From: Desulfallas thermosapovorans DSM 6562
Lineage (GTDB): Bacteria; Bacillota; Desulfotomaculia; Desulfotomaculales; Desulfallaceae
DNA: 64,000 nucleotides
Assembly (NCBI RefSeq): GCF_008124625.1
Contig: NZ_VNHM01000004.1
Span: forward strand, 1 to 64,000
Direction of reading: 5' to 3'
Below are positions 41,654-51,730 of this stretch, one piece after another. The notes beneath the pieces were generated by a model, which was not told where the DNA came from, searched no databases, and saw nothing but the letters and a program-made list of their open reading frames with translations. A program made the translations under genes and the position numbers. Each line of letters opens with the position of its first letter. The first letter of the stretch is position 1.

Positions 41654-42760
41654 ATGAGCTGTTTGCACTCCTGTCACGATGTCCGGGTTTCGGTCAAACA
41701 GGCGGCATCACTGGCCAAAAAATACGATGTAGAGTTACATGCCATAGGAGATTTTAAATTTGCCCGCAAAAACGGTGTTAAATTATTCGGCTTGCCCAAA
41801 AGCAAAAGGCTTTACACAAGGCCGCTCAATTGGTGCCGTCTTTTGGTGCGGGCTTTAAGGGCCAGGGCCGGTTTATATCATTTTCACGATCCTGAACTGA
41901 TTCCCGTGGGGCTGGTGCTGAGACTGCTGGGTCGTAAGGTTATTTATGACGTGCATGAGGATTATCCCGATGCCATATTGCATAAAACATGGATACCCGG
42001 TTGGGCCAGAAAGCTAGTTTCCAGGGTATTTAATTTTGTGGAAAAGAAAAGCGCGTCGTTTTTCAATGCTGTTGTGCTGGCAGAATCGGGTTACCAGGAG
42101 AGTTTTAAAAACGTTAAGACAACTAAAGTGGAGATCCTTAATTATCCCCTTTACAAAGCCAACACCATGGAGCGCCCGGTGGAGGTTCACGGGCGGGTCA
42201 ATCTGATTTATGCCGGTAATATCAGTGCCATCAGGGGGGCCGTGGAAATGGTGGAGGCACTGCATATTTTACGCAGTGCAGCGGTAAATGCGCACCTTTA
42301 CCTGGTGGGGCCGGTAAATCAACCCGGTTTACAGGTAAAACTGAACGAGCTTGCCCGCACCTACGGGTTACAGGACCATATAACCATGACGGGCCTGGTT
42401 TCCCATGACCAGGTTTACCAGTATTACCGGTATGCCCATATCGGTTTAGGCCTGCTCTATCCCGTGGATAACTTCTTAAAATCCCTGGCCACGAAAATAT
42501 TTGAATATATGGCTGTTGGCCTGCCCATGGTGGTGTCGGATTTTCCCGGTTGGAAGAAGCTCCTTGGGGAAGTAAAGGCGGGGGTAACGGCCAACCCGCT
42601 GGATCCTAAAGAGATTGCGGTGCAAATCAAATACTTGGTAGATAACCCTCAAATACGTGCAGATATGGCCATGGCCGGACGCAAAGCCTTTGAGGAGAGA
42701 TTCAACTGGTTGACTGAAGAAAAAAAATTGCTTGGTTTATATGAAAAATTACTTGGTTAA
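41654..42760 (+). CDS. Glycosyltransferase (GT-B) with disrupted 5' end
   Basis: A 368-aa in-frame part of a family-4-like transferase: HFHDPELIPVGLVLRLLG and YDVHEDYPDAI in the acceptor half, RVNLIYAGNISAIRGAVEMV, VGPVNQPG and LATKIFEYMAVGLPMVVSDF in the donor half. The natural start appears to be ATG 41634, which has AAGAGGTGAAAGC upstream and is followed by eight A residues. In that frame a stop comes after 7 codons, whereas one more A would give MKKKVFIMSCLHS and fuse with this frame. ATG 41654 itself has no ribosome binding site. So expression may need slippage, or the copy is phase-off. Confidence 0.8.
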   Translation: MSCLHSCHDVRVSVKQAASLAKKYDVELHAIGDFKFARKNGVKLFGLPKSKRLYTRPLNWCRLLVRALRARAGLYHFHDPELIPVGLVLRLLGRKVIYDVHEDYPDAILHKTWIPGWARKLVSRVFNFVEKKSASFFNAVVLAESGYQESFKNVKTTKVEILNYPLYKANTMERPVEVHGRVNLIYAGNISAIRGAVEMVEALHILRSAAVNAHLYLVGPVNQPGLQVKLNELARTYGLQDHITMTGLVSHDQVYQYYRYAHIGLGLLYPVDNFLKSLATKIFEYMAVGLPMVVSDFPGWKKLLGEVKAGVTANPLDPKEIAVQIKYLVDNPQIRADMAMAGRKAFEERFNWLTEEKKLLGLYEKLLG

Positions 42761-42781: not shown

Positions 42782-45355
42782 ATGCAAGGGGATTATTATA
42801 AGTACTGGCCACTGGGTCTTTTATTGGCCATAGCATTCCTGTTGGGGGTATATGGTCTATTTACAGGTAACTGGCTGCCCTTTTTGGTGCTTTGGGGGTT
42901 GCCCCTCATTGCATTGATTGTTTGGCGCCCGCTGGTAGGCTTTTGCGTAATGGTTTTTTTTATCCCCCTGGAAGATTTAACTGTGATTTTCCCGTCCTTT
43001 ACTGTAATAAAGTTAATCGGGATAGTTACCTTTTGGGGCTGGTTAATGCATTTAATCCTGGCCAGGAAGTTTTTTAAACTAAATAACTTTATATTTATTT
43101 TGGTGTTATATCTTTTTTGGAGCTTCTTATCCACCGCCTGGGCTATCGAACCAGAGCAGAGTATGCGGCGAATGATATCTCTGGTGCAATTACTGGCCAT
43201 GGTGGTGCTGGGTTATAACCTGGTGGAAAAAAAGAAAGACGTTCATTACATTCTGGGAAGCTTCCTATTTGGTGCCTTTATAGCGGCGCTTCTGGGCATA
43301 TATAACGGCTACCTGCATGATTTCACCACCAGGGCGGTGATATGTAATTTGCAGGACCCCAACCTGTATGCCAGGCTGTTGGGCTTGGGGGTGATATTCG
43401 GTGGTTATCTTGCTTTTACCACCAAAGACAAATTAATGCGGCTAGCCTGCCTTTCCGCCTGTGCCGTTATGCTTTTGGCAATATTACTGTCGGGTTCCCG
43501 GGGAGCCTGGCTGGCTATGTTTTTAACCTTACTGGCAGGTAATATCCTTGGCGCCAGGTTTTTAATCAAAGCTTTAAATAAAAGAACGGTACTGGTTGGT
43601 TTAATAGCGGTCGTAATCATAGCCTGCTGTCTGGGTGCATATGCTGTTAAGGAAATGCCGGTGATATCCCAGCGCGCCCAGAGCTTCAACGAAATTTCCG
43701 ATGAGCGGGCAGCGGGTCGTTTTGATATCTGGCTGGTGGGGGCGGAAATTTGTAAAAATAATGTTTTACACGGGGTCGGTTTGGATAATTTCCCCTATGC
43801 TTACACCCGGTACCTCCCGGCCACGGAAGGGGTTTCCGGGGTTGGTTTGAACAAAGGTCCCCACAATATTTACCTGGCCGCCTTTGCGGAACTGGGGTTA
43901 CCGGGTCTCATACTGCTGCTGGCCCTGTTTGTTTCCATGTGGCGACTGGGCGGGCAAACGGAAAAGCCGGCGGATATGATTGCCTGCAGGATGCTTACCC
44001 TTTTTATGGCTCTGGCCGGCCTAACTTGTATGGACCATCATGCTAAATTCTTCTACCTGGGCATGCTGGTTCCCTCTATCATGGCCCAGTTCGGCATATT
44101 ACGGGGTTTTCGACCTTCCGGCAGCCCGGATAACGTGATATTTTTATCCCCGATATTCCCCAATAAATTCAACATAAATAGCGGCATTTTTGCCTTCAGG
44201 ATGATCCAAAACCTGCAGGCTGCCGGGGTTAATGTAAAGGTGATTGCCCCGGTGCCCTACAGCCCGGTGGTGCTGTGGTATAAGGAAAAATGGCGCAATA
44301 TGGGACGGGTACCCTGGAGGGAAAATATTGACGGGGTGGAAATATATCATCCTCGCTTCCTCTGCCTGCCCGGGGGCAAATATGACGAATGGAATATGCG
44401 CTTCATGTACTGGTCCCTTTTGCCGCTGGTAAGTACCTTTAATGCGGTGGCCCGGTATAAAATAATCCATTCCTACGGTCTTGTGCCCACCGGTTATGTG
44501 GGTCTACTGATGGCGGAAAAGCTGGGTGTATACTCGGTATGTACCGCCATAGGTTCCGATGTTAATATGGTGGGGCAAAAACCCGCCGGTGTATCCCAGA
44601 AGGCCAGGTATACACTGCAAAATACCGATGCAGTGGTGGCGGTGGGGCAAGAATTAGCTCGCCAGGCTGAAAAACTAAGTGGAGAAACCAGGGAAGTCAA
44701 GGTGATATACGAAGGTGTGGATGATAATATGTTTGACACCTCGGGTATCAGCCAGGTTCAGGCCAAGATAAAATTGGGGCTTCAGGTGAATGACCGGATT
44801 ATACTTTATGTTGGACGGCTTATCCAGCAAAAGGGTATTTATGAACTAATTGATGCCTTTACCTGGGTGGCCAGGAAATACCCGGCCGCGCGCCTGGTTC
44901 TGGTGGGCAGTGGCCAGGATAAGGAGTCATTAAACTCGCTGGTTGAAGCCAGGGGGTTGCAATCCAAAGTGACCTTTGCGGGACAGGTGCCCCATGCTGA
45001 ACTGGTCTGGTGGTATGCAGCCTGTGAAATCAGCGTTCTGCTGAGCTACCATGAAGGTGTGCCCAATGTTCTCAAGGAGGCCATGAGCTGCGGCAGGCCC
45101 GTGGTGGCCACCAAAGCGGTGGGGATTACGGAGCTGGTTATGGACGGTAAAAACGGTATTTTGGTTGAACCCCGCAACAGTGCTGCTGCGGCGGAGGCTC
45201 TGATTAAACTGCTGGATGATCGTGACACCGCCGCACGTATGGGCAGCCAAGGACGCAATTTAATAAAAAGCGGTTGGGTTGGCTGGAGGCAAACTGCTTA
45301 TGAATACAGGCAGTTATATGATCAACTGGTGGAAGGGAATCATCGCAAGCAATGA
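42782..45355 (+). CDS. O-antigen polymerase/ligase fused to a GT4 glycosyltransferase
   Basis: An 857-aa two-domain protein. Residues 1-~440 are a polytopic membrane region with about 11-12 helices and a long loop holding ERAAGRFDIWLVGAEICKNN, VGLDNF and GPHNIYLAAFAELGLPGL, the Wzy/WaaL-type pattern. Residues ~446-850 are a cytosolic GT-B with IFLSPIFPNKFN, AIGSDVNMVG, ILYVGRLIQQKGIYEL, RLVLVGSGQDKESL and SYHEGVPNVLKEAMSCGRPVV. A polymerase coupled to a transferase in one chain is unusual. GGTGAGG precedes the ATG, 21 bp after the previous gene. Confidence 0.85.
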   Translation: MQGDYYKYWPLGLLLAIAFLLGVYGLFTGNWLPFLVLWGLPLIALIVWRPLVGFCVMVFFIPLEDLTVIFPSFTVIKLIGIVTFWGWLMHLILARKFFKLNNFIFILVLYLFWSFLSTAWAIEPEQSMRRMISLVQLLAMVVLGYNLVEKKKDVHYILGSFLFGAFIAALLGIYNGYLHDFTTRAVICNLQDPNLYARLLGLGVIFGGYLAFTTKDKLMRLACLSACAVMLLAILLSGSRGAWLAMFLTLLAGNILGARFLIKALNKRTVLVGLIAVVIIACCLGAYAVKEMPVISQRAQSFNEISDERAAGRFDIWLVGAEICKNNVLHGVGLDNFPYAYTRYLPATEGVSGVGLNKGPHNIYLAAFAELGLPGLILLLALFVSMWRLGGQTEKPADMIACRMLTLFMALAGLTCMDHHAKFFYLGMLVPSIMAQFGILRGFRPSGSPDNVIFLSPIFPNKFNINSGIFAFRMIQNLQAAGVNVKVIAPVPYSPVVLWYKEKWRNMGRVPWRENIDGVEIYHPRFLCLPGGKYDEWNMRFMYWSLLPLVSTFNAVARYKIIHSYGLVPTGYVGLLMAEKLGVYSVCTAIGSDVNMVGQKPAGVSQKARYTLQNTDAVVAVGQELARQAEKLSGETREVKVIYEGVDDNMFDTSGISQVQAKIKLGLQVNDRIILYVGRLIQQKGIYELIDAFTWVARKYPAARLVLVGSGQDKESLNSLVEARGLQSKVTFAGQVPHAELVWWYAACEISVLLSYHEGVPNVLKEAMSCGRPVVATKAVGITELVMDGKNGILVEPRNSAAAAEALIKLLDDRDTAARMGSQGRNLIKSGWVGWRQTAYEYRQLYDQLVEGNHRKQ

Positions 45356-45561: not shown

Positions 45562-47865
45562 ATGAGTTGTTTGAGAAAAATTTGTATCGCGTTGGTGGTT
45601 GCACTGTTGTTTCTGATACCGGTGCAAGCTGTGAATGCTGCAACCAATGCAGATACCTTGAAAAATTTGTTTGATAAGGTGGATAACCAGTCAAAATGGA
45701 AAGCCAGCAGCAATAAACCGGACGGTTATCAAATATGTTACACCGATTCTTACGTTATGCGCGCTTATCTGTTAATGTACCAGTCCACCGGTGACAAGAA
45801 ATACCTTAATAGTTTTACCAGTTTTGCCGACAGCGTACTGGCGCGCCGGGATAACGTGGTGGGTAAGACCGATTTTCGTGGTTTAAGACTGCCGGGCTGG
45901 AGTAGTAACCATTTTGACCCAAAACAAAATATGCATTACGTCATGGCTACCGGGATGATTGCCACTCCCCTGGCTCAATTCGCCACGGTGGTGAAAAGTG
46001 ATCCCGCTTTGGCCAGCTACAATGCCAAAGCTAATATTTATTTGCAGGCGGCCAGGGATGCAGTGGCCATTCATGAAAAACCCGGCGACTCAAGATATAT
46101 TTACAGCGATAATAACTGGATTGAAGATGGTAATGCCATGTATTTGAAAAGGCCTCTTAACATGAGCTTAGCATATGGCAGTGCTTTGCTGGCCATTTAC
46201 GAAGCTACGGGGGACAAGTCATATCTGGATAGAGGAACAAAAATAGCCAATTATTTTAAACAGCAGCTTACCGTAAACCCGGCTACCAACGGCTATTATT
46301 GGAAGTATTTCCCCGGTCACCCCTCATACGGTAACGTTATAGAGGATTTAAGCCATTCCACGCTGGGCACTGAATTTGCTTACCTTAGCTATAAATGCGG
46401 TCTTTTTAATAATAACGACATGCAAAGATTCGCCAATACCGCCACCAAAACCCTGGCCAGAAGCAACGGCTCAGTTGCCGAAAGGTTAAACGGCAGCGGT
46501 ACCAGTACCCAACCCGGCAAATTCTTGCACTGGTTGTGGTTTGAGCCCTGGGCACCGTCTTTACTGGATACTAGCTATAATATAGTCAAAAACAGAACTT
46601 CAACTTACCCCATGGAACTCATCGGAATAGCCATGCTGAACTACTTTAATGCCCATGGAGAGACCCCTGACCCAGTTGACCCTGCTCCGGGCCCGGGACC
46701 GGGGGAACCGGAACCGGAAGAACCGGAACCGCCCCAGGACACCCAGCGTCCCGTGGTTAAAGTAAATGCCCCGGCAACCGGCAGCCAGCTAAAGGGCACC
46801 GCAGTATTCCAGGTATCGGCCAGCGATAACACCGGAGTAGACAAGCTGGTCCTGGGTTACGGTCCCAGCGCCAAGGGTCCGTGGACCGAGTTTAAAGGCA
46901 CAGCGGAATTAAAGAGCGGCAGCGCAACGGAAGGCAATTGGGAACTGAGTTGGGATGTATCGGGCCTTGCAGACGGCACCTACTATGTATTGGCCCGTGC
47001 CACAGACGCAGCGGGCAACATGGTCTTTTCACCGGCGGCAGCATATGAAGTAAAGAACGCCGTACCGGAACCGGAACCGGAAGAACCGGAACCGCCCCAG
47101 GACACCCAGCGTCCCGTGGTTAAAGTAAATGCCCCGGCAACCGGCAGCCAGCTAAAGGGCACCGCAGTATTCCAGGTATCGGCCAGCGATAACACCGGAG
47201 TAGACAAGCTGGTCCTGGGTTACGGTCCCAGCGCCAAGGGTCCGTGGACCGAGTTTAAAGGCACAGCGGAATTAAAGAGCGGCAGCGCAACGGAAGGCAA
47301 TTGGGAACTGAGTTGGGATGTATCGGGCCTTGCAGACGGCACCTACTATGTATTGGCCCGTGCCACAGACGCAGCGGGCAACATGGGCTTTTCACCGGCG
47401 GCTAAATATGAAGTAAAGAACAAGGTTGAAAACCCGGCACCGGCGGGCAATTTAATCCAAAACGGTGACTTCAGCGCGGGTTTACAGGGTTGGTCAAACA
47501 AGAACAATTCAGCTAAAATCAGCCGTGACTCTGCCGGCAACCCGGCTTTAACCAATACATCCAACTATGATTTCTTCCAGGAAATCAGTCTTAAGCCCGG
47601 CAATTATAAGCTGAATGCCCGGACCCACGCGGGTAATTCCAAAAAAGCAGCCATGATTGTGGTGGTATATTATTACCGTGACGGCAGTCACAGCACGGAA
47701 TACGCCTTCAAGCACCAGCATGCCGGCAGGACCTGGGAGTCCATGCGGGAAATGGCCATTAAGGTACCCAGCACGGTAGTTAAGGCCAGGGTATTCCTGA
47801 CCGTTGAACCCGGTGACAATGGTTACCACCACTTTGATGATGTTACATTGACGGCAGTTAAATAA
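45562..47865 (+). CDS. Secreted multidomain polysaccharide-active protein
   Basis: A 767-aa exported protein. Residues 1-26 form a signal peptide (CIALVVALLFLIPVQAVNA, cleavage after VNA). Residues ~28-372 are repeated helix pairs (TGDKKYLNSFTSFADSVLA, TGDKSYLDRGTKIANYFK) that look like an (alpha/alpha) toroid of glycoside hydrolases, lyases or C5-epimerases. Pro/Glu linkers (PEPEEPEPPQ) join two near-identical Ig-like domains (~395-500, 516-622), and a C-terminal carbohydrate-binding-like domain (~634-767, LIQNGDFSAGLQGW to HHFDDVTL) follows. Probably acts on the cell's own extracellular polymer. The enzymatic class is not identified. AGGAGGG upstream. Confidence 0.75.
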   Translation: MSCLRKICIALVVALLFLIPVQAVNAATNADTLKNLFDKVDNQSKWKASSNKPDGYQICYTDSYVMRAYLLMYQSTGDKKYLNSFTSFADSVLARRDNVVGKTDFRGLRLPGWSSNHFDPKQNMHYVMATGMIATPLAQFATVVKSDPALASYNAKANIYLQAARDAVAIHEKPGDSRYIYSDNNWIEDGNAMYLKRPLNMSLAYGSALLAIYEATGDKSYLDRGTKIANYFKQQLTVNPATNGYYWKYFPGHPSYGNVIEDLSHSTLGTEFAYLSYKCGLFNNNDMQRFANTATKTLARSNGSVAERLNGSGTSTQPGKFLHWLWFEPWAPSLLDTSYNIVKNRTSTYPMELIGIAMLNYFNAHGETPDPVDPAPGPGPGEPEPEEPEPPQDTQRPVVKVNAPATGSQLKGTAVFQVSASDNTGVDKLVLGYGPSAKGPWTEFKGTAELKSGSATEGNWELSWDVSGLADGTYYVLARATDAAGNMVFSPAAAYEVKNAVPEPEPEEPEPPQDTQRPVVKVNAPATGSQLKGTAVFQVSASDNTGVDKLVLGYGPSAKGPWTEFKGTAELKSGSATEGNWELSWDVSGLADGTYYVLARATDAAGNMGFSPAAKYEVKNKVENPAPAGNLIQNGDFSAGLQGWSNKNNSAKISRDSAGNPALTNTSNYDFFQEISLKPGNYKLNARTHAGNSKKAAMIVVVYYYRDGSHSTEYAFKHQHAGRTWESMREMAIKVPSTVVKARVFLTVEPGDNGYHHFDDVTLTAVK
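46708..47423 (+). repeat. Tandem 363-bp duplication inside the secreted protein gene
   Basis: Two copies at an exact 363-nt offset (121 codons), almost identical at the nucleotide level; a GTC/GGC difference near 47023/47386 and the last few codons before the linker differ. Each encodes the Pro/Glu linker and one Ig-like domain. Confidence 0.93.
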
Positions 47866-47872
47866 AAGTTAA

Positions 47873-47918
47873 CACCAAAAGGGGGGGGACGTTGGACGTC
47901 TCCCCTTTTGGTGTTAAT
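47873..47918. terminator. Bidirectional terminator between convergent genes
   Basis: AACACCAAAAGGGG and CCCCTTTTGGTGTT are perfectly complementary; the hairpin overlaps the stop of the leftward LysM gene. Confidence 0.9.
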
Positions 47919-49155
47919 TGACCGGTATATATAGTATTTGACCTACCTCTAAACTGTTGGGGTTGGTGATGTTGTTTTCGTCAATCAATGTTTTAAGGTC
48001 AACGCCAAACTTTTCGGCTATGCCTGAGGCCGTATCCCCGGGTTTTACAACATATTCAGTATGGTTACCCAGGTAGTTCCGGGAGTCTTCGGTTTGGGCC
48101 CGGGTCAGATTATTTAATTCCGCGCCAGTGGCCAGTTTTAAAGATACGTTATCGAAGTCGCAGGCCACCGCAGCCGAGTCATCGTTGGCCAGCAAGTATA
48201 TTCTGGCCTGGTGAATGCCGGCAGGTATTTTGATAACTTCCGTTACATCATTCCATTCATTGTTGGTGTGACTGCGCACAATGTTATAAAACTCCGGAAT
48301 TCTCTGACCTTGCTCATCTAAAAATACTACTTTGATGCGGGTGGGCACTTGCACGTCCGGTGTTCTGGTTGTGGCTTTGACTACGTAAATTTGTTCCGGC
48401 TCAACCTCAACCTGCTGGTAAAGACTCCAGTTATACCCGTTCCTTAAAAATTTATTATCATTCTCCTCGGTAATTAAAGATGATTCTCCAACCCAACCAA
48501 ACAGTCCCAGTTCAAAATCCCCATTGGCTATTTTTTCATTTTGGTCCGCCTGCAGGTTTGCCCGGTCACCCACTGCACTGGTCCTGGTAACCACGATATT
48601 GTCAAAATAGTGGTAACCTTTGGGGTCACTGGTTAGCAGGTATATTTTAGTTATGGCGGCTTTTTCGGGTATGGCGATATATTGTTGAGCTATGTCCTCC
48701 CAATCGTTACCGGTATGGGTGTGCCGGATATCATAGTACTGGGGCAATTTGTTTCCATTGACATCATGGAATGTAAAAACTATCCTGGCCGGTCCCTGGG
48801 CCGTGCCCTTTTTGGTTTGGGCTTTGATTTGGTAGGTGGTGTGGGGAAGCAAATTCATGTCCTGCCGGATGTCCCAACTGGCGTTGTTCATGATATAGTG
48901 ATTTCCGTTTTCATCCTTTTGCACGGCGTAATTATTATTCCAGCCAAGGCCTCCCTGTTCAAAATCCCCGTTTATTATGGCGGGTTTTTCCAAAAAGACG
49001 GTGTCAGGGTTTTCGGTACCGGCCGGTGCGTCAACAGCGGCTTTAGCACCGGGGTTGGTTGAGGTCTGGGAATTAAGGTTGTTGTAAACAAAATAAAGGA
49101 CCACCAGAGCAAAAATTGCGGTTAATACTATAACCAATAAATTCTTACCTTTAAT
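47914..49155 (-). CDS. Membrane-anchored LysM protein with two carbohydrate-binding-like domains
   Basis: About 413 aa. Residues ~8-25 are a membrane anchor (VIVLTAIFALVVLYFVY). Two homologous galactose-binding-like domains (~55-175 and 200-330) each start with NGDFE and end YHYFDNIVV/CDFDNVSL. The C-terminal LysM (EYVVKPGDTASGIAEKFGVD to NSLEVGQILYIP) binds peptidoglycan. The start is likely ATT 49155: GGAGGAG sits 6 nt upstream, the peptide begins MKGKNLLVIVL, and an in-frame TAA above leaves no ATG or GTG. A TTG at 49137 is the only alternative, and it lacks a site. It converges on the secreted enzyme that bears a related C-terminal domain. Confidence 0.83.
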   Translation of the reverse strand: MKGKNLLVIVLTAIFALVVLYFVYNNLNSQTSTNPGAKAAVDAPAGTENPDTVFLEKPAIINGDFEQGGLGWNNNYAVQKDENGNHYIMNNASWDIRQDMNLLPHTTYQIKAQTKKGTAQGPARIVFTFHDVNGNKLPQYYDIRHTHTGNDWEDIAQQYIAIPEKAAITKIYLLTSDPKGYHYFDNIVVTRTSAVGDRANLQADQNEKIANGDFELGLFGWVGESSLITEENDNKFLRNGYNWSLYQQVEVEPEQIYVVKATTRTPDVQVPTRIKVVFLDEQGQRIPEFYNIVRSHTNNEWNDVTEVIKIPAGIHQARIYLLANDDSAAVACDFDNVSLKLATGAELNNLTRAQTEDSRNYLGNHTEYVVKPGDTASGIAEKFGVDLKTLIDENNITNPNSLEVGQILYIPVN

Positions 49156-49270
49156 TTTTTTCTCCTCCTTTTTAATTTATGTAAAAGAATAGAACAGGTA
49201 ATTTTACATTATGCGCTGTTTGGTAGTTATGTCATTGTAGACTAGCAGTAAGTAAATGGTAGTGGTATCG

Positions 49271-49322: not shown

Positions 49323-50819
49323 TTATAGCAAGCGCCTGGCAACTGCAGCAATGTTTTTTAAATCCCTGGCGTAAAATATGCCGTTTATACCAAGGGTTAC
49401 GGTGGTTGCAACAAACATGATTTCACAGGCATACAGGCACCATCTTAAATAACTGTCAATATGCATGGCCGGAAGCAATTGAGCTAGCAAAACAATGGCT
49501 GCGGCGGCTAAAATATTTACGGCACATCTTTTAATGAAAAGCCGGATACTTCTGTGTAAAACATTGTTCGAAAGATATATGGCATATTGGATGGTCCTGA
49601 ACAGCATGGCGCATAGAGTTGCAATGGCCACCCCCATCAGGCCGTATTGGATTACTAAAGCAATAGACAAGATGATGTTAATTGCTGCCTCGGCAAAGGC
49701 CCCGTTTCTGGTTTGCTTAAAATGTCCCGCTGCCAGCGTTACAGAGTGGTAGGGGAGCCTGATGCAGTATACTGCTTCGGCCATGATCAGAATATATGCA
49801 AAGGCCGGCCTGTGGTAGTTAGCATCGGTGATGCCGCCGGTATACACCGAGACAAAGGGCAATACCAACAATGCCGCGCTGGTAAAAAAGATGGTGGTAA
49901 CGGTAAAGGAAATAAATTCATACAGGCGGAAGTTGGCGTTTAGGGCTACGGTTTCTTTTTTTGCGATCATGTTGCCAAAGCCGGCCTCCAGGCCGGACGA
50001 AAAGGTGGTCATTATTTTCTCTATCCCGGATACCACCATATAATATATGGAATACACCGAAACTTCCCTGGTGTTGGTGAACAATGTCAGCACTACCACA
50101 TCGGTGTGCCGGTGCAAAAAATAAGCTAAATGGTGACCCAGTCCATCCCATCTTTGTTTGATAGCCCTTTGATCAGCGGTACAGCGGCTGGTTATTTTAT
50201 ATTTGCTCCGGACATAAATGCTAAGTAGTATCGGTCTGGTGATAAAAACAACTGCACTGCCCAGCATAACCATGTGTATACCGGCGCCTTGTTTAACAAG
50301 GATTACAACCAGGATGGTGCTGCAAACCGTGGCCAGTATTTGTGTTAACGAGGCTATGTACCTTTTTTGGTCCGCCTGTAACAACACTTGATAGGTAATC
50401 CCGAAGTAATACTGTACGAAGGTACCGGCGCCAATAATTAACACCAGGATAAAGGTAAACAGCCATTCAAATTCATTTCCCACCAGAAACGGGAACAATC
50501 CCGCCACAAGCAGGGAATAACCAACAAAGACCAGTGCTATGACCCGGAAAAGGTTTTCCGTAGCTTTAACAATACCGTTTATGGAGTTCAGGTCATGATC
50601 AGCCAGCGGTTTGTACAGGGCCGCCCGTACCACGCCGCCCACACCAAACTCAAGCAGGGTGATATAACCTAAAAATTGCTTGATGGAATAAACCAAGCCA
50701 TTAACACTGGAACCAAAGGACCCGATGATCAACCTGGGGACAATAAAACCGCAGATAATGGTTATTGCCTGCAGGGCCAGTGAAGCCGCGGTGTTATATA
50801 ATGCTTTCCTGGTTCTCAT
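49323..50819 (-). CDS. Polysaccharide flippase (Wzx/MATE-like)
   Basis: A 498-aa polytopic membrane protein with 12-14 helices; N-terminus YNTAASLALQAITIICGFIV then PRLIIGSFGSSVNGLVYSI, and a LLEFGVGGVVRAALYKPLAD motif typical of the oligosaccharidyl-lipid flippase group. Moves undecaprenyl-linked repeat units outward for the polymerase. Overlaps the GT2 gene by 4 bp, so the two are coupled. Confidence 0.88.
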   Translation of the reverse strand: MRTRKALYNTAASLALQAITIICGFIVPRLIIGSFGSSVNGLVYSIKQFLGYITLLEFGVGGVVRAALYKPLADHDLNSINGIVKATENLFRVIALVFVGYSLLVAGLFPFLVGNEFEWLFTFILVLIIGAGTFVQYYFGITYQVLLQADQKRYIASLTQILATVCSTILVVILVKQGAGIHMVMLGSAVVFITRPILLSIYVRSKYKITSRCTADQRAIKQRWDGLGHHLAYFLHRHTDVVVLTLFTNTREVSVYSIYYMVVSGIEKIMTTFSSGLEAGFGNMIAKKETVALNANFRLYEFISFTVTTIFFTSAALLVLPFVSVYTGGITDANYHRPAFAYILIMAEAVYCIRLPYHSVTLAAGHFKQTRNGAFAEAAINIILSIALVIQYGLMGVAIATLCAMLFRTIQYAIYLSNNVLHRSIRLFIKRCAVNILAAAAIVLLAQLLPAMHIDSYLRWCLYACEIMFVATTVTLGINGIFYARDLKNIAAVARRLL

Positions 50820-51730
50820 GGTGCATTCTTCCCATAGGATTTACGGAAAAGAAAAAACCTGGCTATATGTTTCAGGTAAGCGAGGTTGCGCTTGATCGCC
50901 CACGGGGCCAGCTTGACTGATTGCCAGTATATGGCCAGGGCCTTTTTTCCGTCACCCAGTTGCAGGTAGTACGGGGTAAGCATAATAAGCCGTGTACTTT
51001 TAGCCTTTGGATGTGTAGCTAAATAATCCGCATATTTTTTGTTAATAGCCTGGATACCCTGAATTTTGCTCCGGGGGTTGGTGGTGATTCTTTCTCCGTC
51101 GTGGATATGATAAATAACCAGTGATTCATTTACACAATCAACCTTGAACTTGCGGGCAATTCTCAGCCACATATCGTGGTCCTGGGATGATAGCATACTG
51201 GTGTCAAACAGGCCGCACTGTTCAAAGCACCTGCGCCTGACCAGCACAAAAGAAGTTGAACCGATAAAGTTCCCCAGCATTAAATCATCGAAAACACTGC
51301 CCGCTATACAGCGGTCAATTAACCGGGTACTTTGAGTGGTGGAGTCAACCATTTTATAGTTGCAGTAAACCAGGCCGGTATTTGCATCAGACATTTTAGC
51401 CATTTGCTTTTGTAGTTTTCCGGGCAGCCACTGGTCGTCATCATCCAAAAAAGCGATAAATTCACCCCGGGAGGCTAAAAGCCCGGTGTTTCTCGCTGCA
51501 CTGCCGCCCAGGTTTTGATCGTGTTTGATGTAGCGCAGGCGGTGGTCGTCCAGGGTTTTTATCAACTGTTCCACCGCTTTCCGCTGGGCAAAATCAGCCG
51601 GGCTGTCATTCACAACGATTATTTCCAGGTTTTTATAAGACTGGTTAATGACGCTGTCCAGCGCCCTTTTAACCATGGCCGGGGGGCGTTTGCAGGTGGG
51701 AATAATCACGCTGATTAAAGGTTCTTCCAT
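50816..51730 (-). CDS. Glycosyltransferase family 2
   Basis: A 304-aa GT-A fold enzyme: PLISVIIPTCKRPPAMVKRA, LEIIVVNDSP, NLGGSAARNTGLLASRGEF, then the metal-binding FLDDDDQWLPGKL and the catalytic SSQDHDMWLRIARKF region. No membrane segment. First gene of the leftward GT2-flippase pair. Transfers one residue to the lipid-linked unit; sugar unknown. Confidence 0.9.
   Translation of the reverse strand: MEEPLISVIIPTCKRPPAMVKRALDSVINQSYKNLEIIVVNDSPADFAQRKAVEQLIKTLDDHRLRYIKHDQNLGGSAARNTGLLASRGEFIAFLDDDDQWLPGKLQKQMAKMSDANTGLVYCNYKMVDSTTQSTRLIDRCIAGSVFDDLMLGNFIGSTSFVLVRRRCFEQCGLFDTSMLSSQDHDMWLRIARKFKVDCVNESLVIYHIHDGERITTNPRSKIQGIQAINKKYADYLATHPKAKSTRLIMLTPYYLQLGDGKKALAIYWQSVKLAPWAIKRNLAYLKHIARFFLFRKSYGKNAP

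Follow-up and report, generated by a model that had tools for sequence, protein, structure and literature searches.

Results

The convergent gene pair and its domains

In the stretch of Desulfallas thermosapovorans DSM 6562 analysed here (64,000 nucleotides, positions 1 to 64,000 of contig NZ_VNHM01000004.1; hereafter the window), two convergent genes, P0001 and P0002, encode proteins that have a carbohydrate-binding module (CBM) in common (Table 1). P0001 combines a toroid domain and two immunoglobulin (Ig)-like repeats with a C-terminal CBM; its N-terminus is hydrophobic and, judged by eye, reads as a signal peptide. P0002 combines a transmembrane (TM) segment, two CBMs and a LysM domain. 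From its first listed start, a TTG, the open reading frame (ORF) of P0002 covers 47914-49137 on the minus strand (407 aa), and the frame is open up to 49176. The shared terminator supposed in the first-pass annotation corresponds to a hairpin between the genes. The Ig-like repeats are nearly identical, and relatives have between 0 and 4 copies of them, a sign of recent duplication.

Table 1. Features of the gene pair and of the neighbouring polysaccharide genes in the window
Feature	Position	Strand	Basis
P0001, predicted secreted toroid-Ig-Ig-CBM protein, 767 aa	45562..47865	+	ORF and domain matches
(alpha/alpha)6 toroid domain of P0001	45640..46674	+	Predicted structure, fold comparison, Pfam
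Two near-identical Ig-like repeats of P0001	46741..47439	+	Big_7, E 1.2e-15
C-terminal CBM of P0001, CBM16/CBM4_9-like	47446..47856	+	Sequence and predicted fold
Terminator-like hairpin between the convergent genes	47867..47919	.	-34.5 kcal/mol, z -6.0
P0002, predicted membrane-anchored CBM-CBM-LysM protein, from ATT start	47914..49155	-	
LysM domain of P0002	47923..48054	-	56.1 bits, cut-off 20.9
Second CBM of P0002	48133..48540	-	
First CBM of P0002	48583..48987	-	
TM segment of P0002	49084..49140	-	Mean hydropathy 2.89, 19 residues
AAGGAGG and ATT start of P0002, no canonical start codon there	49153..49170	-	
GT4 glycosyltransferase	41654..42760	+	
Wzy_C fused to GT4 glycosyltransferase, single ORF	42782..45355	+	Clear Wzy_C match
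Flippase-like (Wzx-like) protein	49323..50819	-	Polysacc_synt 20.2 bits, below cut-off 28.2
GT2 glycosyltransferase	50816..51730	-	

The same annotation had described a convergent pair with a common carbohydrate-binding-like domain, and this was confirmed. The P0001 CBM had 43 identities in 136 columns with copy 1 of P0002 and scored 199, while the best of 2000 shuffles reached 62. The scores were 132 (maximum 55) for the P0001 CBM and copy 2 and 226 (maximum 59) for the two copies of P0002, again with 2000 shuffles each. On these scores the three copies are clearly homologous, and they are predicted to belong to one family and one fold rather than to different ones. The structure model of the enzyme CBM (48 copies aligned; predicted local distance difference test, pLDDT, 97.2) was CBM16-like (Foldseek E 3.4e-7, Z ~16) with about 20% identity to CBM16 structures, and the CBM-like domain of Cry1 scored equally high against it. 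When a profile of the anchor CBM was run against the PDB, the Cry1 domain was again returned (best E 2e-5), the other CBM matches being faint. P0002 matched CBM_4_9 at 27.7 bits (cut-off 25.9), while the Pfam matches of P0001 held no CBM_4_9 for the enzyme CBM. Profile match and beta-sandwich fold together place the module in the CBM_4_9/CBM16 superfamily, with which it has its fold in common. From this homology we infer that the CBMs of both proteins bind carbohydrate, and that the polymer is the same for both.

The N-terminal domain of P0001 was rightly labelled a toroid. An AlphaFold2 model built from 12 relatives (pLDDT 85.8, predicted template modelling score 0.89; pLDDT <50 at residues 74-82 and 90-95, within which a conserved loop lies) matched (alpha/alpha)6-type structures over the whole domain, with Z of 20.2-24.0, 269-311 residues aligned and root-mean-square deviations of 2.9-4.1 among the 50 matches shown. 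These comprised the putative hydrolase 3k11, GH105, GH76, cellobiose 2-epimerases and a polysaccharide lyase, none of which stood out; the best Foldseek E was 4.1e-5. Toroids of GH105/GH88, GH76 and the cellobiose/GlcNAc 2-epimerases thus have the same fold as the window toroid (Z 20-24) but differ from it in sequence, with 6-16% identity in the aligned pairs and weak, partial Pfam matches. The window toroid alone matched GlcNAc_2-epim at 23.7 bits (cut-off 23.4), but this covered 78 of the 339 residues, and its matches to GH76, GH88, GH127 and the C5-epimerase C-domain were all below cut-off. Among 32 relatives at E <= 0.01, GlcNAc_2-epim was matched by 21, GH76 by 17, GH88 by 15, GH127 by 14 and C5-epim_C by five. 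An NCBIfam model for the toroid was not found, the 32 relatives giving a single stray match in one member. An assignment of the toroid to a known enzyme family was tried and not adopted: the likeness seen with Pfam, NCBIfam, a PDB sequence search and fold comparison was weak, partial or confined to the overall fold. Residues R70, D71, N174, Y219, Y223, E235, D236 and H239 are among those invariant in 32 toroid sequences, and this pattern suits an active site. Candidate chemistries would be cleavage, a lyase reaction or uronate epimerization, and with neither an NCBIfam model nor a convincing Pfam family the activity would be new biochemistry.

Distribution and arrangement of the pair

Within the genus, relatives of P0002 were found in six of seven genomes (handles with G denote genomes) and the toroid in the same six, G005 having neither. 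The toroid occurred in 12 of the 16 genomes of the family and in 31 of the 113 of the class. The anchor-CBM profile matched 33 of the 113 class genomes, namely all 31 with the toroid and, without it, G010 and G087. A CBM protein separate from the enzyme (a stand-alone CBM protein) was present in 19 of the 31 toroid genomes of the class (G000, G001, G002, G003, G004, G006, G007, G012, G013, G014, G015, G075, G076, G077, G085, G086, G088, G095 and G112) against 0 of the other 82 (Fisher p 8.4e-14, kinship ignored). G010 and G087 were counted as lacking such a protein because in both the CBM match begins where the contig does; under the opposite choice, the figure would be 2/82. A draw of 398 genomes from the phylum gave seven with the toroid, four of them outside the class, and two of these four have a stand-alone CBM protein. 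In G234 it is a TM-CBM-LysM protein, convergent with the toroid gene and 1.4 kb from it; in G114 it is a CBM-CBM-LysM protein whose N-terminus is hydrophobic and which lies on a different contig from the toroid beside glycosyltransferase-like genes. In this draw CBM matches at E < 1e-20 were found in six genomes, every one with the toroid, and the best E values of the 12 other CBM-matching genomes were 4.6e-13 to 5.9e-9. The pair is thus found together elsewhere too, in many cases as adjacent genes, in line with the first-pass reading. The toroid was matched in none of 72,556 plasmid records and none of 50,697 phage records, with no confirmed match in viral contigs, in collections that may omit records very near the window. 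A scan of the genome contigs with P0002 gave two loci where the match was restricted to the LysM end, and was uninformative.

In 16 of the 21 genomes with a stand-alone CBM protein, its gene is on the toroid contig and at most 7 kb away, and in 11 of these 16 (G000, G001, G002, G003, G004, G006, G085, G086, G088, G095 and G112) no other ORF of at least 90 aa lies between the two, the toroid counted as neighbour in G085, G086 and G088 being a second one that lacks a CBM. A strongly hydrophobic segment (mean at least 2.4 over 19 residues) was found in 20 of 21 stand-alone ORFs tested, a set with two proteins of G012 and without that of G114; the exception, in G013, is an ORF that begins just before the CBM. 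Docking at peptidoglycan through LysM had been suggested for P0002. Such docking is not a constant feature: LysM is present in 12 of the 21 genomes, and the proteins of the other nine carry either a TM segment or a lipoprotein-like signal (G085, G086, G088), or show no visible anchor (the G013 ORF). At its core, the second protein usually combines a membrane anchor with a CBM. In G085, G086 and G088 (L117, L119, L144) the lipoprotein-like CBM protein is adjoined by the second toroid without CBM, an arrangement that looks like separate provision of the CBM.

The history of the module was followed in a tree of 90 CBM rows, for which the program warned of few columns for the number of rows. Five rows that came from the ends of contigs or from a disrupted reading frame (L118 twice, L125, L120, L116), at first taken as anchor CBMs, were relabelled as enzyme CBMs. 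Enzyme and anchor labels changed four times on the tree, compared with about 26 changes after shuffling. One supported group (99/96), which spans families, unites the first CBMs of 14 anchors, and most enzyme CBMs group separately. This separation indicates that the pairing did not arise by a recent copy and that the two were long kept as distinct partners. The CBM of a NAGPA-CBM-LysM protein of G012 groups with enzyme CBMs (100/100); such a swap would fit a shared ligand. The anchor CBM of G234 also lies among enzyme CBMs, on a very long branch.

Gene neighbourhood

The neighbouring Wzx and Wzy genes named in the first-pass annotation held up in part. Wzy_C is clear and is fused to a GT4 glycosyltransferase, whereas the Wzx-like protein matched only below the cut-off (Table 1). 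Wzy_C-like genes recur in part of 35 toroid loci. In G003, G006 and G014, Wzy_C and the TuaC-like GT4 are encoded by two ORFs instead of one. With the four glycosyltransferases of the window as queries, matches were found near 30 of the 35 toroid loci (at least two at 25 of them) against 1 of 20 arbitrary stretches from the same genome set; many of the tested loci are kin, two control stretches are short (2.6 and 4.0 kb), and G000 is positive by construction because the query enzymes come from the window. The toroid is encoded within a polysaccharide biosynthesis locus, as an AlgL- or BcsZ-like role would have it. The window further holds a DegT aminotransferase, a hexapeptide transferase, a Gfo/Idh oxidoreductase and a UDP-sugar dehydrogenase, which we take to resemble WbpE, WbpD, WbpB and WbpA, respectively. 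These genes of the window hint at a diamino-uronic acid, which is not general across the loci; since a WbpB-like gene lies near only 9 of the 35, a uronic-acid polymer stays a hint. The window also gave a weak VimE match, and Hepar_II_III proteins are encoded near the toroid in G013, G014 and G090.

Discussion

The explanation we favour, to which we give an even chance, is that P0001 is an enzyme of a surface-polysaccharide pathway and P0002 a lectin-like anchor by which the envelope holds the same polymer, with P0001 working in the manner of AlgL or BcsZ. The surrounding locus would make one surface polysaccharide served by both genes. P0001 would be exported and hold the polymer by its CBM while the toroid acts on it, as AlgL and BcsZ do in their loci. 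The N-terminal TM segment of P0002 would fix this protein in the membrane and, in the window, LysM would also fix it at the peptidoglycan; its two CBMs would grip the same polymer, which, and indirectly the enzyme, would be kept at the envelope. If true, this would be one way for bacteria that presumably, from their lineage, lack an outer membrane to keep a repeat-unit polymer on the cell, by means of matching lectin modules on enzyme and anchor.

Several observations weigh against it. In 12 of the 31 toroid genomes of the class the CBM is found only in the enzyme (G009, G071, G090, G091, G092, G094, G096, G097, G099, G100, G101 and G109). Outside the class, G139 and G263 have no separate CBM protein: the sole CBM match of G139 is in the enzyme, and G263 has the toroid and no CBM match in the phylum draw. 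The stand-alone gene is on a different contig from the toroid in 5 of the 21 genomes (G012, G075, G076, G077 and G114), and 5 of the 35 toroid loci gave no glycosyltransferase match. The toroid itself could be inactive; a catalytic pair of a known family could not be mapped on it. Furthermore, one G012 protein joins the CBM to Amidase_3 and has a weak glucosaminidase match (L176, 7917-9734, plus strand), and another joins it to NAGPA and LysM (L120, 5803-7299, minus strand), and so its ligand may be a wall polymer. The idea of a polymer-anchoring or remodelling system, raised earlier for these genes, is in part supported by the domains, the recurrence of the pair and the polysaccharide setting, with the restriction that the pair is not obligatory.

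These G012 fusions, to a peptidoglycan amidase and to NAGPA with LysM, make one rival serious, although on balance we consider it unlikely. The CBM would be a cell-wall targeting module that recognizes a wall polysaccharide which these cells have in common, and the toroid a wall-remodelling enzyme recruited through it; P0002 would be a structural protein of the envelope, bridging the membrane, the wall polysaccharide and peptidoglycan, with no capsule or exopolysaccharide being tethered. The LysM domains of 12 of the 21 stand-alone proteins argue in the same direction, as does the likeness of the fused GT4 of the window to the teichuronic acid protein TuaC (E 9e-55, far below the model cut-off). 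However, Wzy_C and flippase-like genes at the loci suit repeat-unit polymers, and nine of the 21 proteins do without LysM. If the polymer is itself wall-bound, this rival and a surface-polysaccharide pathway with its anchor overlap.

The architecture of P0001, toroid, Ig and CBM, may resemble that of secreted plant-polysaccharide enzymes, and CBM16 structures, going by their titles, bind beta-glucan and mannan oligosaccharides. P0001 might therefore be a foraging enzyme for foreign polysaccharides, the captured glycan being displayed on the surface by P0002. The neighbours, however, are glycosyltransferases and sugar-nucleotide genes, and one transporter (DctM/DctQ, near the G071 toroid) was noticed, no systematic search for catabolic genes having been made; we regard foraging as improbable. 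Likewise we give little credence to the toroid as a non-catalytic, lectin-like scaffold and to both proteins as matrix proteins, which would fit the unmapped catalytic pair but not the invariant residues that suit an active site.

The pathway enzyme with an envelope anchor has partial parallels in known systems. AlgL is described as an exported alginate lyase of the Gram-negative periplasm, with an (alpha/alpha)5 toroid and encoded in the alginate operon (PMC8829089). Like AlgL, P0001 would be exported and would act through a toroid on the polymer made by its own locus; P0001 differs by its (alpha/alpha)6-type fold, its Ig and CBM modules and the CBM-bearing anchor alongside. An alginate-lyase match is absent among the Pfam matches of P0001 and the toroid. 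BcsZ (GH8) and CcsZ (GH5) are hydrolases of cellulose synthase loci, CcsZ showing the principle in Clostridia (PMC7710045). The common point would be a polysaccharide hydrolase associated with the synthase; in contrast, GH8 and GH5 are absent from the toroid Pfam matches and the window locus is Wzy-like. Among the titles listed in searches of the open-access literature on LysM, carbohydrate-binding modules and exopolysaccharide, none points to such an enzyme-anchor pair.

Start codons of the anchor genes

P0002 probably starts at an ATT (49155-49153) behind AAGGAGG, in agreement with the end coordinate of 49155 given in the first-pass annotation. In 1,071 kb of fetched DNA we surveyed AAGGAGG sites for start codons. 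At 76 of them a canonical start opens an ORF of at least 100 codons, and 15 offer only ATT, ATA, ATC or CTG, 5-10 bases downstream, with an ORF of at least 150 codons. Seven of the 15 belong to anchor genes (the window, G001, G002, G004, G075, G076 and G077), and in the window and in L027, L028, L030, L111, L113 and L115 the motif is followed by ATT or ATA at 8-9 bases. Compared with the window, G004 has one more base between the motif and ATT, indicating that the reading frame is not preserved ahead of ATT. Conserved AUU/AUA initiation in the anchor genes is thus possible, as far as DNA sequence can indicate it. A more far-reaching proposal, which we put forward tentatively and with some doubt, is a dedicated, long-conserved polymer-holding system, in which an enzyme family lacking a curated model would share its lectin module with an anchor in the membrane and often also at peptidoglycan; a single recognition event would then serve both to process the polymer and to fasten it to the envelope, and the AUU/AUA start would keep the output of the anchor low. 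Two more of the 15 sites precede short membrane-protein ORFs adjoining the anchors of G014 (L046, ~252) and G013 (L047, ~15112), with ATT at 9 bases, and the remaining six are unrelated or inside genes. In the anchor genes of G112 and G234, GTG and ATG are available instead.

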